Of a stretch of DNA of 64,000 nt, positions 14,439 to 20,423 are shown in pieces. Each line of letters opens with the position of its first letter. The stretch's first letter is position 1. The notes beneath the pieces are model-generated. The model searched no databases. It was not told where the DNA came from and was given only the letters and a program-made list of their open reading frames with translations. A program made the translations under genes and the position numbers. The stretch spans positions 1-64,000 of the forward strand of contig NZ_QYRT01000005.1 of assembly GCF_004923255.1 (NCBI RefSeq), read 5' to 3'. The DNA comes from Subtercola vilae (lineage in GTDB: Bacteria > Actinomycetota > Actinomycetes > Actinomycetales > Microbacteriaceae).

Positions 14439-14645
14439 TCTTTGGCTCCTCACGGGTCGATACCTCAGACAATCTCTGTAACCAATACAAGCATGACAAT
14501 GTTCCCTCCGCGCTACAAACCACTGTGTTTCACAGCGGGTTTCGCTGTGCGCGTACGCCCCGTTGACATTGGGGTGTCGGAGTCCGAGAGTGTCGGTGGT
14601 CAAAAGTAGTCTTGTGTGCGGCCCCCGACCCCCAGGAGTACTTCT

Positions 14646-16733
14646 ATGGCATCGTCTGACTATTCCGCCAGGCACCTCTCGGTTCTCGAGGGGCTCGAGG
14701 CCGTGCGCAAGCGCCCCGGAATGTACATCGGCTCGACCGGCCCGCGCGGCCTCATGCACTGCCTCTGGGAGATCATCGACAACTCGGTCGACGAAGCGCT
14801 CGGCGGCCACGGCAACGAGATCTCCATTGTGTTGCACCCCGACAACAGCGTCGAGGTTCGTGACCGCGCCCGGGGCATTCCGGTCGACATCGAGCCGCGC
14901 ACAGGCCTCAGTGGTGTCGAAGTGGTCTTCACGAAGCTGCACGCCGGTGGCAAGTTCGGTTCGGGCTCCTACGCGGCCTCGGGCGGTCTGCACGGCGTGG
15001 GCGCTTCGGTGGTCAACGCACTCAGCGAACGGCTCGACGTCGAGGTAGACCGCGACGGCAAGACGTGGGCCATGTCGTTCCACCGCGGCGAGCCCGGCAA
15101 CTTCGCCGATGCCGACCCGAAGAACCCCTCCCCCTCGGCCGCTTTCACCCCCTTCGAGAAGAAGAGCGAACTGCGGGTGGTGGGCAAGGTCGCCCGCGGG
15201 GTCACGGGCACGCGCATCCGGTACTGGGCAGACCCGCAGATCTTCACCGAGCAGACCCAGTTTCAGACCAGCGAGCTCATCGACCGTGCCCGGCAGACCG
15301 CTTTTCTCGTGTCAGGGCTCGCGCTCGACATCACCGACAACCGCGGCGAAGAGCCGCTGCACGAGGCATTCAGTTACGAGGGCGGGCTGGCTGAGTTCGT
15401 CGATTTTCTGGCACCGGATGCCCCACTCACCGACACCTGGCGCCTCGAAGGCTCTGGCACCTTCACCGAGACCGTTCCCGTGCTGAGCGATGCGGGCGCC
15501 ATGGTGCCCACCGAACTCACCCGCGACTGCTCGGTCGACATCGCCCTCCGCTGGGGAACCGGCTACGAGACCGAGCTGAAGACCTTCGTCAACATCATCT
15601 CTACGCCGAAGGGCGGCACCCACCTCGCGGGCTTCGAGGCCGGGCTGCTGAAGTTCTTGCGCAAGACGGTCGAAGACAACGCTCGGCGTCTCAAGGTCGG
15701 TAACGACAAGCTCGACAAAGAAGACGTGCTCGCCGGCCTCACTGCCGTGCTCACCGTGCGCCTACCCGAGCCGCAGTTCGAAGGCCAGACCAAAGAGATT
15801 CTCGGCACCCCGGCCGTGCGCAACATCGTCACGGCCGTCGTGACCAAGACCCTCACCGAACGCTTCTCGTCGACCAAGCGCGACGACAAGACCCAGACCG
15901 CCCTGGTGCTCGACAAGGTCGTCGCCGAGATGAAGTCACGGCTGTCTGCCCGCGCCCACAAAGAGACGCAGCGCCGCAAGAACGCGCTCGAGAGTTCATC
16001 GCTGCCAGCGAAGCTCGTCGACTGCCGTTCGAGCGACGTTGTGAGTTCAGAGCTGTTCATCGTCGAGGGCGACTCGGCGCTCGGCACCGCCAAGTTGGCG
16101 CGCAACAGTGAGTTTCAGGCGCTGCTGCCCATTCGGGGCAAGATTCTGAACGTTCAGAAGGCCTCGGTGGCCGACATGCTGTCGAACAGCGAGTGCGCGT
16201 CGATCATCCAGGTGCTCGGGGCGGGGTCGGGCCGGTCATTCGACCTCACCAGTGCGCGGTACGGCAAGATCATTCTGATGAGCGACGCCGACGTCGACGG
16301 TGCGCACATCCGCACCCTCCTGCTGACGCTGTTCTTCCGCTACATGCGGCCGATGATCGACGCGGGCCGGGTCTTCGCGGCCGTGCCGCCCCTTCACCGC
16401 GTGGTGGTCATGAACCCGGGCACGAAGCCCAACGAGACCATCTACACGTACTCCGAGAACGAGTTGAACGGTGTGTTGGCCGGCCTCAAGCGCACCAACA
16501 AGCGCTATCAAGACCCCATCCAGCGTTACAAGGGTCTCGGCGAGATGGATGCCGACCAGCTCGCGCTCACCACCATGGACAAACGGCACCGCGCCCTCCG
16601 CCGTGTTCGCGTCACCGATGCCGTGGCCGCCGAACGCACCTTCGAGCTGCTCATGGGCGACGACGTGGCCCCCCGTAAAGAGTTCATCATCGCGGGCTCG
16701 GCCGACCTCTCCCGCGATCGCATCGACACCTGA
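14646..16733 (+). CDS. parE: DNA topoisomerase IV subunit B
   Basis: ATP-binding subunit of the type IIA topoisomerase partnering ParC. The 695-aa protein begins MASSDYSARHLSVLEG. It shows the GHKL ATPase elements (EIIDNSVDEAL, GLHGVGASVVNALS), the transducer domain, and a TOPRIM domain with EGDSALGTAKLAR (about residue 472) and the metal ligands DADVDGAHI. EGDSALG instead of EGDSAGG is, as I recall, the usual ParE variant in this phylum. ATG 14646 has AGGAG eight bases upstream and is preferred over the in-frame GTG at 14616. Confidence 0.94.
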   Translation: MASSDYSARHLSVLEGLEAVRKRPGMYIGSTGPRGLMHCLWEIIDNSVDEALGGHGNEISIVLHPDNSVEVRDRARGIPVDIEPRTGLSGVEVVFTKLHAGGKFGSGSYAASGGLHGVGASVVNALSERLDVEVDRDGKTWAMSFHRGEPGNFADADPKNPSPSAAFTPFEKKSELRVVGKVARGVTGTRIRYWADPQIFTEQTQFQTSELIDRARQTAFLVSGLALDITDNRGEEPLHEAFSYEGGLAEFVDFLAPDAPLTDTWRLEGSGTFTETVPVLSDAGAMVPTELTRDCSVDIALRWGTGYETELKTFVNIISTPKGGTHLAGFEAGLLKFLRKTVEDNARRLKVGNDKLDKEDVLAGLTAVLTVRLPEPQFEGQTKEILGTPAVRNIVTAVVTKTLTERFSSTKRDDKTQTALVLDKVVAEMKSRLSARAHKETQRRKNALESSSLPAKLVDCRSSDVVSSELFIVEGDSALGTAKLARNSEFQALLPIRGKILNVQKASVADMLSNSECASIIQVLGAGSGRSFDLTSARYGKIILMSDADVDGAHIRTLLLTLFFRYMRPMIDAGRVFAAVPPLHRVVVMNPGTKPNETIYTYSENELNGVLAGLKRTNKRYQDPIQRYKGLGEMDADQLALTTMDKRHRALRRVRVTDAVAAERTFELLMGDDVAPRKEFIIAGSADLSRDRIDT

Positions 16734-16792: not shown

Positions 16793-17614
16793 CTACTCGC
16801 TGAGGGGCGCGGCGGCGATAGTGGCGCGAGCCTCGGCAGCGCGGCGGTCGATCTCGACGAGGTCGGGGGTGGCCGGCGGCAGGGCTGTGGATGCCCGACG
16901 AGCGAGCGCCGTTTCAAGCAGCCAGTCAGCGAGGGCGGGGTTGTTCGCGAGCACCGGCCCGTGCAGGTGGGTGCCGATGAGGTTGTCGACCCAGAACCCT
17001 TCGACCCGTGCATCCGGAGCCACCAGCGTGGCACCCGTCGACGAACCGTCGGAGGCCGCCGCAGCGGCCGCACTCGCGCCCGCGCCTGGGCCTGACGCCG
17101 CGAGATTGCCGCGACCGTACACCACGTGCCCGATGGGAGCAGCGTCGCCGATGTCGATGTACGAACCTCGGTTCTCGAAACCCACGAGGGTTCCGAGGCG
17201 GGATTCGACGACGAAGTCGCCCACGACACGCTCGCCCGCTATGACGGTGCGAACCGGAAAGACGCCCGCTCCGGCCAGAACCGTTCCATCAGCAAGCGTC
17301 ACGGTCTCGCCGAGCAGCTGAAAGCCGGCGCCCACCGCGAGGAAAGGAACGCCCTGCTGTGCCAGCAGCCGGAGCCCCGGAGCAACGTCGGCGACACCCG
17401 GATGTGCCTGCACCTCTGCCGAGACAGGCCCACTGCCGATGAACACGAGGTCGACCTGCAGCGGCACGGCCACGCCGGGCTCGAGACGGGTGATCTCGAC
17501 GGCGATGCCACGCGATGAAGCCCGGCGACGCAAGATGTCGACGTTGCCGCTCTCGCCGTTCATGCCCAGGGTACGCGGGAACAGGTGCAGGATGCGCAGT
17601 GTCAGATCGCTCAT
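16793..17614 (-). CDS. gatD: GatD-like type 1 glutamine amidotransferase lacking the catalytic Cys
   Basis: GatD normally releases ammonia from glutamine for MurT, which amidates the D-Glu of lipid II. This 273-aa homologue has the family fold: LFPRTLGMNGESGNV at the N-terminus, a nucleophile-elbow region FLAVGAGFQLLG, and GTHLHGP with the catalytic-type His (about 218). The nucleophile position is Gly95 where the canonical motif is (I/V)CGG, and the whole protein has no cysteine. An Ala/Gly/Ser insert occupies about residues 172-195. ATG 17614 overlaps the murT stop by one base (TGATG), and a strong AGGAGGGGG precedes it. Glutaminase activity is therefore unlikely; it may be structural or regulatory for MurT. 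Confidence 0.85.
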   Translation of the reverse strand: MSDLTLRILHLFPRTLGMNGESGNVDILRRRASSRGIAVEITRLEPGVAVPLQVDLVFIGSGPVSAEVQAHPGVADVAPGLRLLAQQGVPFLAVGAGFQLLGETVTLADGTVLAGAGVFPVRTVIAGERVVGDFVVESRLGTLVGFENRGSYIDIGDAAPIGHVVYGRGNLAASGPGAGASAAAAAASDGSSTGATLVAPDARVEGFWVDNLIGTHLHGPVLANNPALADWLLETALARRASTALPPATPDLVEIDRRAAEARATIAAAPLSE

Positions 17615-18894
17615 CACTGGCCCCCTCCTTCGAGCTCTTTGAAACCCAGAATCTTGCGAATCGACATCATCTGCTCATAGTTCAGAATCATGGTCTTTCG
17701 ACCCATGGTCGGGCGAGGAAGCGCGAGGAACAGCTTCAACGCCTCGCGCACGTCGAGGTCGACGGTGCCGACCGGAATGTCGGCGTACCCGAATCGCGTG
17801 GCGAACTGCCAAGCCTTCGAGCCCGTAATCACGTCGATGTGGTCAAGATTCGACAGGTCGATGTCGTAGATCCACGACGGATCGGGCGTGCCCTCATCAA
17901 CCGCCATGAAGACCTGCTCGGGAGCCGACTGCAGCGAATCGAGGTTCAACTGCAGGCTCGCCGGGTTCTTCATCATGATGATCTCGATCGACTCGTCGCC
18001 CACCTGCAGCAACTCGCCGCGGCCGTAGACGGTCGACAGGCCACCGAGAGCAGCAGTGACGAGCCCCGGGCGAAACGTGTCACCGAGAATTGCTTTGGCC
18101 GTGGCCGTGGCTCCCGCGGCATCCAGAGCGTAGTGCAGCCCCCGTGCAGGCAGTCGAACGGCCACATCGCGCCCGTCGATCGCAAGCACAGCCTGCAGGT
18201 CGCCCACATCGGTGACAGTGACCTCGGCCTCCCGCGCACCGGCATCGATGTGACCCTCATCGAATCGGTCGGCAGAGGCCACACCGTGGGCCGCACCAGA
18301 AATGAGCTCGGGCGAAGCGCCGAAGAAGGTGACCTCGCGCGTGCCGGGCAGCCGCTTGTCGAGGTCAACCAGGTGGTTGTCATCGCGGTTCAGAATCAGC
18401 GCGCGGGTCGACGAACCGGCGACCTGTTCGAGCATTCGAACAACGCGGTCGGGCTCGTGATAGCGGTTGAGCTGGTCGATCTGAATGTTCAGCAGCAGCA
18501 CCGTCGTGGGCTTCAGCATCTTCGTGATCTTGGGCCCATAGCCCTCGTCGACCTCGAGGATGGCAATGTCGGCGTCGAGCACGCCCGTCACCGACACGCT
18601 GGCCAGCACCGCCGACGCAATGCCCTGTGGCAGGTTGCCGCCCGAGGGATTGGTGAACACCTTCAGACCGTGCTCGCGGAGAATCGCCGCCAGCATGTTC
18701 GTGGTGGTCGATTTGCCGTTCGAGCCAGAGACGGCCACCACGCCCAGTGGAATGCGCGAGATGGTGTCTTCGAGAAAGGTGGGCGCTATTTTGAGCGCAA
18801 TCGTGCCGGGTATCGCTGAGCCGCCGCCGCGCAGACGCGCGGCGACACGAACAGCGCGACCGACAAGAATGGCCGTCGCGGTACGGAATCCCAC
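17614..18894 (-). CDS. murT: MurT-like Mur ligase family protein without zinc ribbon
   Basis: MurT is the ATP-dependent ligase of the MurT/GatD lipid II amidotransferase. The 426-aa protein has the Mur ligase P-loop SGSNGKSTTTNM (about residues 56-67), the central-domain ILEVDEGYGP and LLLNIQIDQLNRY, and a C-terminal DUF1727 domain with PSWIYDIDLSNLDH. Canonical MurT has a four-Cys zinc ribbon inserted in the central domain. Here the corresponding stretch (after LNRDDNHLV) contains no Cys, and the protein has none at all. The GTG start lies one base after the rpoD stop, so it is probably coupled to rpoD. The D-Glu region activity could be retained with a different amine donor; see findings. 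Confidence 0.85.
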   Translation of the reverse strand: MGFRTATAILVGRAVRVAARLRGGGSAIPGTIALKIAPTFLEDTISRIPLGVVAVSGSNGKSTTTNMLAAILREHGLKVFTNPSGGNLPQGIASAVLASVSVTGVLDADIAILEVDEGYGPKITKMLKPTTVLLLNIQIDQLNRYHEPDRVVRMLEQVAGSSTRALILNRDDNHLVDLDKRLPGTREVTFFGASPELISGAAHGVASADRFDEGHIDAGAREAEVTVTDVGDLQAVLAIDGRDVAVRLPARGLHYALDAAGATATAKAILGDTFRPGLVTAALGGLSTVYGRGELLQVGDESIEIIMMKNPASLQLNLDSLQSAPEQVFMAVDEGTPDPSWIYDIDLSNLDHIDVITGSKAWQFATRFGYADIPVGTVDLDVREALKLFLALPRPTMGRKTMILNYEQMMSIRKILGFKELEGGGQ

Positions 18895-18895
18895 G

Positions 18896-20365
18896 TTACT
18901 CGAGGTAGTCCCGAAGAGACTGCGACCGCGAGGGGTGACGCAGTTTGGCCATGGTCTTCGATTCGATCTGGCGAATACGCTCGCGGGTGACCCCGAAGGT
19001 GTCGCCGATCTGGTCGAGGGTCTTGGGCATGCCGTCGCCCAAGCCGAAGCGCATGCGAATGACGCCGGCTTCGCGCTCGGAGAGCGAGTCGAGAAGCGAC
19101 TCGAGCTGCTTCTGCAACATCGTGAAGCCCACCGCATCGGCCGGAACGACCGCCTCGGTGTCTTCGATCAGGTCACCGAACTCGCTGTCGCCGTCTTCAC
19201 CCAGAGGAGTGTGCAGCGAGATGGGCTCGCGGCCATACTTCTGCACCTCGACGACCTTTTCAGGGGTCATGTCGAGTTCGCGTGAAAGCTCTTCGGGCGT
19301 GGGCTCGCGACCGAGGTCTTGCAGCATCTGGCGCTGAACGCGGGCCAGCTTGTTGATGACCTCGACCATGTGCACCGGAATACGGATGGTACGAGCCTGG
19401 TCGGCCATAGCACGCGTGATGGCCTGACGGATCCACCACGTGGCGTAGGTCGAGAACTTGAAGCCCTTGGTGTAGTCGAACTTCTCGACGGCACGGATGA
19501 GCCCGAGGTTTCCCTCTTGGATCAGGTCGAGGAACTGCATTCCGCGGCCGGTGTAACGCTTTGCAAGCGATACCACGAGGCGAAGGTTCGCGCCCAGCAG
19601 ATGACTCTTCGCTCGCTGGCCGTCTTTGGCAACCCAGAGAAGCTCACGCTTCAGCTGCGGGGTCATGCCTTCGGAGTTCGCCAGCTTGTCTTCGGCGAAC
19701 AGGCCCGCCTCGATGCGCATGGCGAGCTCGACCTCTTCGGCCGCGTTCAGCAACGCGACCTTGCCGATCTGCTTCAAATAGTCTTTGACCGGGTCGGCCG
19801 TGGCGCCGGTGATGGCGCTCGAGTAGACGGGCACATCGTCGTCGTCGTCGACCAGCGAGAGCACGAGCGCGCCCGTGGGCAGGTTCTCGGCCGATGCCGG
19901 TTTCACCTTGTCGTCGTCAGTGTCGCTGTCGTCGTCGGCAGCGCCGTCGGCGGAGGCCTCAGGAACGGCGACGACCACGAGGGTTTCGGTCTCGTCGTCG
20001 TCGGTCTCTTCGATGTCGACGGCGTCTTCGTCGTCTGCGTCGATGTCGTCGTTCGCCTTGCTGGCGGTTGCCTTGCCCTTGGTTGTCGCCTTGGGGCCGG
20101 TCTTTGCGGCCGTGGCCGCCTTCTTTGCGGGCGCAGCTTTGGCAGCAGGCGCCTTAGTAGCGGCCGCCTTAGTGGCAGGCGCCTTAGTGGCAGGCGCCTT
20201 AGTGGCGGCTGGCTTCGTTGCAGCCGACTTCGTTGCAGCTGGCGTTGTTGCAGCCGACTTCGTTGCAGCCGGCTTTGTCGCAGCCGATTTTGTGGCTGGG
20301 GTCTTTGCAGCGGCAGCTGTGGCTGCGACTGGCTTGGTTGCGGCGGGAGCCTTCGTGGTGGCCAT
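18896..20365 (-). CDS. rpoD: Principal RNA polymerase sigma factor
   Basis: Primary sigma-70 (SigA/HrdB type), directing RNA polymerase to housekeeping promoters. The 489-aa protein contains region 1.2 ([20 protein letters not shown]), regions 2.1-2.4 ([34 protein letters not shown]), region 3 and the region 4 helix-turn-helix ([14 protein letters not shown]). The first ~90 residues are an Ala/Thr/Lys repeat followed by an acidic stretch, a disordered extension typical of actinobacterial primary sigma factors. ATG 20365 has an AAAGGTGAT Shine-Dalgarno and is preferred over 20389. Downstream on the same transcript are murT and gatD. Confidence 0.96.
20150..20345 (-). repeat. Degenerate ATK/AATKP repeats in rpoD 5' end
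   Basis: Tandem imperfect 12- to 15-bp units encode [14 protein letters not shown]-like repeats in the SigA N-terminal extension. The lysine-rich tail is likely unstructured and its length may vary among strains. Confidence 0.8.
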
Positions 20366-20423
20366 ACGATCACCTTTCACACCGGTCAAGATGACGGTTC
20401 GAAGCGGTGTGCGCCCCGCGCCA

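Follow-up and report, generated by a model that had tools for sequence, protein, structure and literature searches.

In the canonical MurT/GatD system, ammonia derived from GatD attacks an acyl phosphate that MurT is presumed to form on the alpha-carboxyl of D-Glu in lipid II. In type B walls this D-Glu alpha-carboxyl bears the cross-bridge amino acid, and group B peptidoglycan is said to have been classified by Schleifer and Kandler in 1972. The bridges of type A walls are built by FemABX aminoacyl-tRNA transferases and by the ATP-grasp D-Asp ligase, which add the bridge amino acids to a lipid-linked or nucleotide precursor; their folds are unrelated to MurT/GatD, and instead of the D-Glu alpha-carboxyl they modify the residue 3 side chain. 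We know of no enzyme assigned to the attachment of the type B bridge to the D-Glu alpha-carboxyl, and no prior assignment was found in the open-access literature, with subscription papers and preprints outside that scope. The ligases MurC-MurF and the archaeal pMur ligases have the same fold as MurT and also add amino acids to a carboxyl in an ATP-dependent manner, but their precursors are UDP-linked, they work without GatD and they carry another C-terminal domain. The MurT relatives of pseudomurein archaea are not bound to an active glutaminase, and they lack a GatD partner (PMC11915815). The peptidoglycans of the family Microbacteriaceae are B-type and contain, variously, Dab, Orn or Lys, and that of Rhodoluna lacicola yields D-Ala-D-Dab (PMC4156110, PMC7033078).

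The locus described here lies in a window of 64,000 nucleotides (the whole stretch of DNA that was analysed) from a Subtercola-like genome of the Microbacteriaceae, whose closest named relative is S. boreus (84% MurT identity). It consists of two genes, placed in a slot between rpoD and parE:

14616..16733, plus strand: parE, topoisomerase IV B subunit, the convergent border of the slot downstream
16793..17617, minus strand: gatD*, glutaminase-dead GatD homologue of 273-274 aa, starting with ATG at 17614 or GTG at 17617
17614..18894, minus strand: murT*, Mur-ligase-like subunit of 425-426 aa, with a GTG start at 18894 and the stop at 17614
18896..20389, minus strand: rpoD, primary sigma factor, the border of the slot upstream

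Only 1 nt separates the rpoD stop from the MurT start and gatD overlaps murT through ATGA, so rpoD-murT-gatD looks like a single operon. The interval between parE and gatD contains no racemase gene here. In Pfam, MurT matches Mur_ligase_M (PF08245, E=3.9e-11) and MurT_C (the former DUF1727, E=2e-7), and GatD matches GATase_3 (E=7e-16). The NCBIfam equivalog scores of the pair are far under the cut-offs (109.8 against 450 and 113.9 against 800); a canonical, Cys-containing Leifsonia pair also scores under them. The best PDB matches of both AF2 models are MurT and GatD from S. pyogenes, S. aureus and S. pneumoniae: the MurT model (pLDDT 87) has MurT 9sq9/6gs2/6fqb as top matches, and the GatD model (pLDDT 89) has S. 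aureus GatD 6gs2_A, with a TM score of 0.85 normalised by target. The translations of both genes contain no Cys. The initial annotation had described a tightly coupled, cysteine-free pair with Gly95 at the catalytic Cys of GatD and with the His, the P-loop, the DUF1727 domain and the GatD fold kept, and sequence, Pfam and AF2 all bear this out. It had also counted a second, canonical pair, which would make this one redundant, as evidence against its reading; a profile search of the genome gave a single MurT_C match, the slot MurT, and found no second MurT/GatD pair.

With the canonical pairs of S. aureus, S. pneumoniae, S. pyogenes, Mycobacterium and Corynebacterium, the slot pair shares the two-gene order, the folds, the MurT P-loop, the DxSW Asp and the GatD His, and probably also the D-Glu alpha-carboxyl as acceptor. 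Unlike them, it sits in the rpoD-parE slot, where many relatives carry racemase-like genes alongside. We propose that the slot pair is probably a MurT/GatD without glutamine hydrolysis, now serving type B peptidoglycan as an amino-acid ligase that acts on the D-Glu alpha-carboxyl. Among the Cys-less pairs, class 1 was found in all named Leifsonia, Clavibacter, Subtercola, Herbiconiux and Pseudoclavibacter, the walls of which contain Dab, while class 2 has the GatD motifs FLFTHNALEV and GTSLIGP and class 3 the motifs VVFGTSVAL and WTNLLGP.

The case for the loss of glutamine hydrolysis is found in GatD, where three positions are of interest:

17330..17332, minus strand: GatD Gly96 (Gly95 from the ATG at 17614), codon GGC, aligned with the catalytic Cys94 of S. 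aureus and Cys107 of S. pneumoniae
16961..16963, minus strand: GatD His219 (GTHLHGP), the catalytic His, kept here and lost in Clavibacter, Planctomonas and others
17558..17560, minus strand: GatD Asn20, which in the alignment replaces the invariant Tyr corresponding to Tyr30 of S. pneumoniae GatD

The catalytic stretch aligns as PFLAVGAGFQLLG here against LTICGGYQFLG in S. aureus GatD. Across the slot loci the Cys site is occupied by Gly (79), Ala (31), His (10), Ser (7), Asn (4) or Thr (2), and by Cys in 0 of 133. Two further differences from canonical GatD accompany this loss. In all or nearly all class-1 loci the GGG of the oxyanion loop has become GSG and the next Asp is gone (GSGP for the canonical GGGxD), and position 20 is Asn in 63 of 63 family class-1 loci of the named-genome scan, against Tyr in 32 of 32 Cys-containing relatives; in S. 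pneumoniae GatD, Tyr30 plugs the ammonia passage between the GatD site and MurT (PMC6085368). What is diagnostic of the class is the loss of the GatD Cys only, which is often joined by that of the oxyanion loop and the Tyr plug and sometimes by that of the His. Judged by these residues, the slot GatD is very probably unable to act as a glutaminase. Such a GatD could still support a working MurT, because in S. aureus the GatD exchange C94G abolished the use of glutamine and left the NH3-dependent ligation by MurT unaffected, the GatD protein still being needed (PMC3266927). The Cys-to-Gly change of that mutant is identical to the one seen here, and the NH3 reaction and the need for GatD were both kept; it differs in being a single laboratory change in an enzyme whose natural substrate is still ammonia (PMC3266927).

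In MurT, conserved and class-specific positions stand side by side:

18703..18726, minus strand: MurT P-loop GSNGKSTT, residues 57-64, the ATP site being intact
17881..17883, minus strand: MurT Asp338 of DPSW, kept, equivalent to Asp355 of S. pneumoniae MurT, which faces the GatD active site (PMC6085368)
17806..17817, minus strand: MurT Lys360-Gln363 (KAWQ), class-specific, where canonical MurT has an invariant R..D

Class-1 MurT keeps the P-loop, EVDE and DPSW in the alignment, and the ATP site is invariant throughout the aligned rows. Against the Cys-containing relatives, the switches S86G, R90Q, R139I, D143N, G313S, R360K, D363Q and T407E are complete or nearly so. These fixed changes are located in the C-domain and around the acceptor, and Asn85 of S. 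pneumoniae MurT, an essential residue, is close to this region (PMC6085368). An unchanged ATP site together with switched residues is the pattern expected if the acyl-phosphate step were kept and the nucleophile changed; as a sign of amino-acid binding, the substitutions are only suggestive. The missing zinc ribbon of MurT, once put forward as a signature of the pair, is indeed absent here, but it has no special meaning and was rejected as a class marker: Cys-containing relatives lack it as well, cysteine-free MurT also partners Cys-containing GatD in other families (L340, L357), and the four-Cys tetrad is itself reported in 'some Actinobacteria' only (PMC6085368).

The loss of the GatD Cys follows the slot. 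Among the sampled Microbacteriaceae it is missing in 133 of 133 slot pairs, a count that covers only loci with flanks and includes several loci from the same species, and because no sampled slot locus has it, its absence is not a matter of chance or error. Family pairs outside the slot have the Cys in 9 of 11 cases; one of the two that lack it is a class-3 pair beside a CofE-like gene (L215). In other families it is present in all 21 pairs. In the named-genome scan, every Microbacteriaceae locus with a readable GatD lacked the Cys and had Gly, Ala, Ser or Asn instead, and the canonical pairs of Corynebacterium and of the order's other families kept it. Four named Leifsonia, including L. aquatica DSM 20146, have two pairs. 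In L. aquatica DSM 20146, L. virtsii and L. shinshuensis a Cys-less slot pair is accompanied by a fully canonical pair elsewhere, and the motifs of the second Leifsonia pair are canonical throughout (VCGLYQL, GTYLHGP, NVYGD and GGGGQD). This coexistence argues for a split of function. The initial annotation had regarded Cys-containing pairs in type B relatives as evidence against its idea, and such pairs do exist in this family (L. aquatica DSM 20146; nine sampled family loci), but they lie outside the slot, and the Leifsonia genomes that have them possess the Cys-less pair as well. At the level of the family the slot pair does occur in type B organisms, and its Cys loss is fixed throughout; the loss tracks the rpoD-parE slot and not simply type B peptidoglycan, since in some family genomes that slot contains CofE-like and ATP-grasp genes or is empty.

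In a maximum-likelihood tree of MurT, all 27 class-1 slot rows form one clade with a support of 100/100, which falls on the side of most canonical actinobacterial MurT. Classes 2 and 3 belong to a separate Cys-less MurT lineage, which they share with Oscillospiraceae. The same rpoD-parE slot houses classes 1 and 2 as well as one of the two class-3 loci. Since class 1 and classes 2 and 3 stand in separate MurT lineages, on this tree the Cys was lost more than once, and the resulting pairs came to occupy a single slot within a single type B family.

Not every family genome has a MurT/GatD pair in the slot. The matches in 37 sampled family genomes were all weak and fit ordinary Mur ligases and FolC; of the slots of 20 of these genomes, 17 held a CofE-like protein and 3 were empty. 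The CofE-like slot protein belongs to a ligase family (PF01996), is about 232 aa long and scores far under the F420 CofE cut-off. Its gene usually occurs with that of an ATP-grasp protein, ATPgrasp_ST (PF14397), and mostly also with racemase-like genes (slot cassettes L299-L312, L314-L316, L320 and L216); in L216 it lies beside a class-3 pair, and class-2 pairs often adjoin an ATP-grasp protein. Three near-complete Microbacteriaceae genomes (L313, L317, L318) had neither a MurT/GatD pair nor a CofE-like cassette in the slot that could be found. The slot is empty in some members of the family, many of them with a canonical pair elsewhere, and from these ligase-free slots it follows that other wall-making routes must exist, or that the walls are different. 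The Cys-less MurT/GatD as a universal type B enzyme of the family was rejected, given the 37 sampled genomes without it and the CofE-like protein in 17 of the 20 fetched slots.

Racemase-like genes adjoin 54 of the 133 slot pairs but no canonical pair. The two subunits of alanine racemase share each active site, one contributing the Lys and its partner the Tyr. Of the slot subunits, a has lost the PLP Lys (usually Lys to Arg) and kept the Tyr of SYG, and b has kept the Lys and is missing the Tyr segment; because the alanine racemase site draws on both subunits, a and b would form one composite site. Exactly one a and one b were found in 54 of the 66 loci with such genes, CofE-like cassettes included, and a complete racemase in none, which suggests an obligate heterodimeric racemase. 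Examples of a+b pairs are L060:6006-8074, L049:3687-5419 and L029:6001-7760, with about 50 further loci. In Microcella the racemase genes overlap gatD, by four bases in Microcella putealis. No racemase genes are adjacent to the slot pairs of Subtercola, Herbiconiux and Clavibacter. In the present genome, two complete tandem alanine racemase genes were located on contig 60 (131148-133006, L235/L236), downstream of a glmS-like gene, and one of them may be a D-diamino acid racemase and supply this genome.

In some relatives the slot also holds other genes. At L319 the order is Rac-Dat-GatD-MurT-RpoD, with a class-1 pair and a Dat gene (ectB/dat, 948-2243) over the NCBIfam cut-off, and the diaminobutyrate aminotransferase gene (ectB/dat) also occurs within CofE-like cassettes (L311:4402-5670, L316:5445-6767 and L320:6642-7898). 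Between the CofE-like and ATP-grasp genes of another slot cassette lies murJ, encoding the lipid II flippase (L301:2829-4418, over the equivalog cut-off). The flanks of 20 canonical loci from other families of the order held no racemase-like, Dat, CofE-like, ATP-grasp or MurJ genes. Only this physical linkage told anything: genome-wide co-occurrence of dat (TIGR00709) with the pair was uninformative and was set aside, dat being over the cut-off in 58 of 300 family genomes, pair-less genomes among them, without a clear pattern. In this genome no dat over the cut-off was found. The slot may be an interchangeable cassette for the type B cross-bridge, whose ligase would be of one of two kinds, a glutaminase-dead MurT/GatD that was taken up from separate lineages on at least two occasions, or a CofE-like homologue of the F420 ligase with an ATP-grasp protein, both fed by an obligately heterodimeric D-diamino acid racemase with a composite site; we regard this wider model as evenly balanced between right and wrong.

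For the slot pair itself, we infer substrate, reaction and product as follows. Like the canonical enzyme, MurT would bind ATP and phosphorylate the D-Glu alpha-carboxyl of the lipid-linked precursor, and the acyl phosphate would be attacked by the amino group of the cross-bridge amino acid, which replaces ammonia. GatD would have no catalytic part but would remain indispensable, giving shape to the side where the amine enters. MurT would still depend on this partner and draw its amine from solution, since the C94G enzyme of S. aureus behaves in this way (PMC3266927). Gene context points to D-diamino acids and to lipid II, and the addition of a D-diamino acid is the best-supported proposal because the racemase halves, Dat and MurJ are found in the slot of relatives. 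The likeliest substrate in Subtercola-like genomes would be D-2,4-diaminobutyrate, with other D-diamino acids in other genera. The earlier suggestion of an amino-acid ligase for the D-Glu alpha-carboxyl is strengthened by a GatD that appears dead as a glutaminase, by the fixation of the loss and by the fitting context; its choice of amino acid is now revised to a D-diamino acid on account of the linked racemases and Dat. Several findings count against the ligase reading: only 54 of the 133 slot pairs have adjacent racemase genes, dat is over the cut-off in a minority of family genomes and not in this one, the slot of many family genomes has no ligase, and kindred Cys-less pairs are present in two further actinobacterial families and in Oscillospiraceae.

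The sharing of slots by two types of ligase, that is CofE-like protein with class-3 MurT/GatD (L216), CofE-like protein with ATP-grasp, and class-2 MurT/GatD with ATP-grasp, raises the question whether the pair makes another bond of the cassette (the second bridge residue, glycine as the first, or a bond at another precursor carboxyl), with D-Glu charged by another enzyme. B1 bridges do consist of two residues. Class-1 pairs, however, are usually the sole ligase in their slot, and since the D-Glu alpha-carboxyl is already the target of canonical MurT, a change of nucleophile is the simplest step; we consider this alternative unlikely, though it keeps more weight than those that follow.

Less probable still is an ammonia-dependent amidase, in which D-iso-glutamine would be made as before, from free NH3 rather than glutamine. 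An amidated D-Glu alpha-carboxyl would, on general grounds, block type B cross-linking, and Leifsonia would then possess two amidases; the racemase halves, Dat, the CofE-like replacement and the fixed changes on the acceptor side would also be left unexplained. In its favour are the intact fold and ATP site and the NH3-dependent amidation retained by S. aureus GatD C94G, seen in vitro at pH 8.5 (PMC3266927). A decayed or regulatory pseudo-enzyme without ligase activity, to which the free drift of the glutaminase residues and the loss of the His in some genera would be suited, is highly improbable in view of the purifying selection on both genes (dN/dS of 0.05-0.17 for MurT and 0.13-0.35 for GatD), the invariant ATP site and the single conserved clade and slot across the family. 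Comparison of the genes documents a Cys loss with the ATP site kept under purifying selection, with residues fixed in the class and with a slot and partner genes of its own.

If the preferred reading of an amino-acid ligase is true, the slot pair would show clearly how an amidotransferase can become an amino-acid ligase through the loss of its glutaminase, and many Microbacteriaceae annotations as 'isoglutaminyl synthase' are probably misnamed. The two-gene ligase, the substitute ligase set and the dedicated racemase are testable candidates for the type B bridge step.

Some minor observations concern the Cys-less proteins more widely. The GatD of this genome has an insert rich in Ala, Gly and Ser (16996-17104, about residues 172-207) that is absent from the GatD of Herbiconiux and Leifsonia, and the confidence of the AF2 model is low within it, at residues 177-200. 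Cys-less GatD of the FTGNAPEV, ATWIIGP type was seen outside the class in two further actinobacterial families (L382-L391), and L387 has a CofE-like neighbour. Furthermore, in Oscillospiraceae UBA3851 two convergent and highly divergent MurT/GatD pairs adjoin each other (L068:3929-8193); both GatD lack the Cys, and the pairs are similar to classes 2 and 3 of the family.
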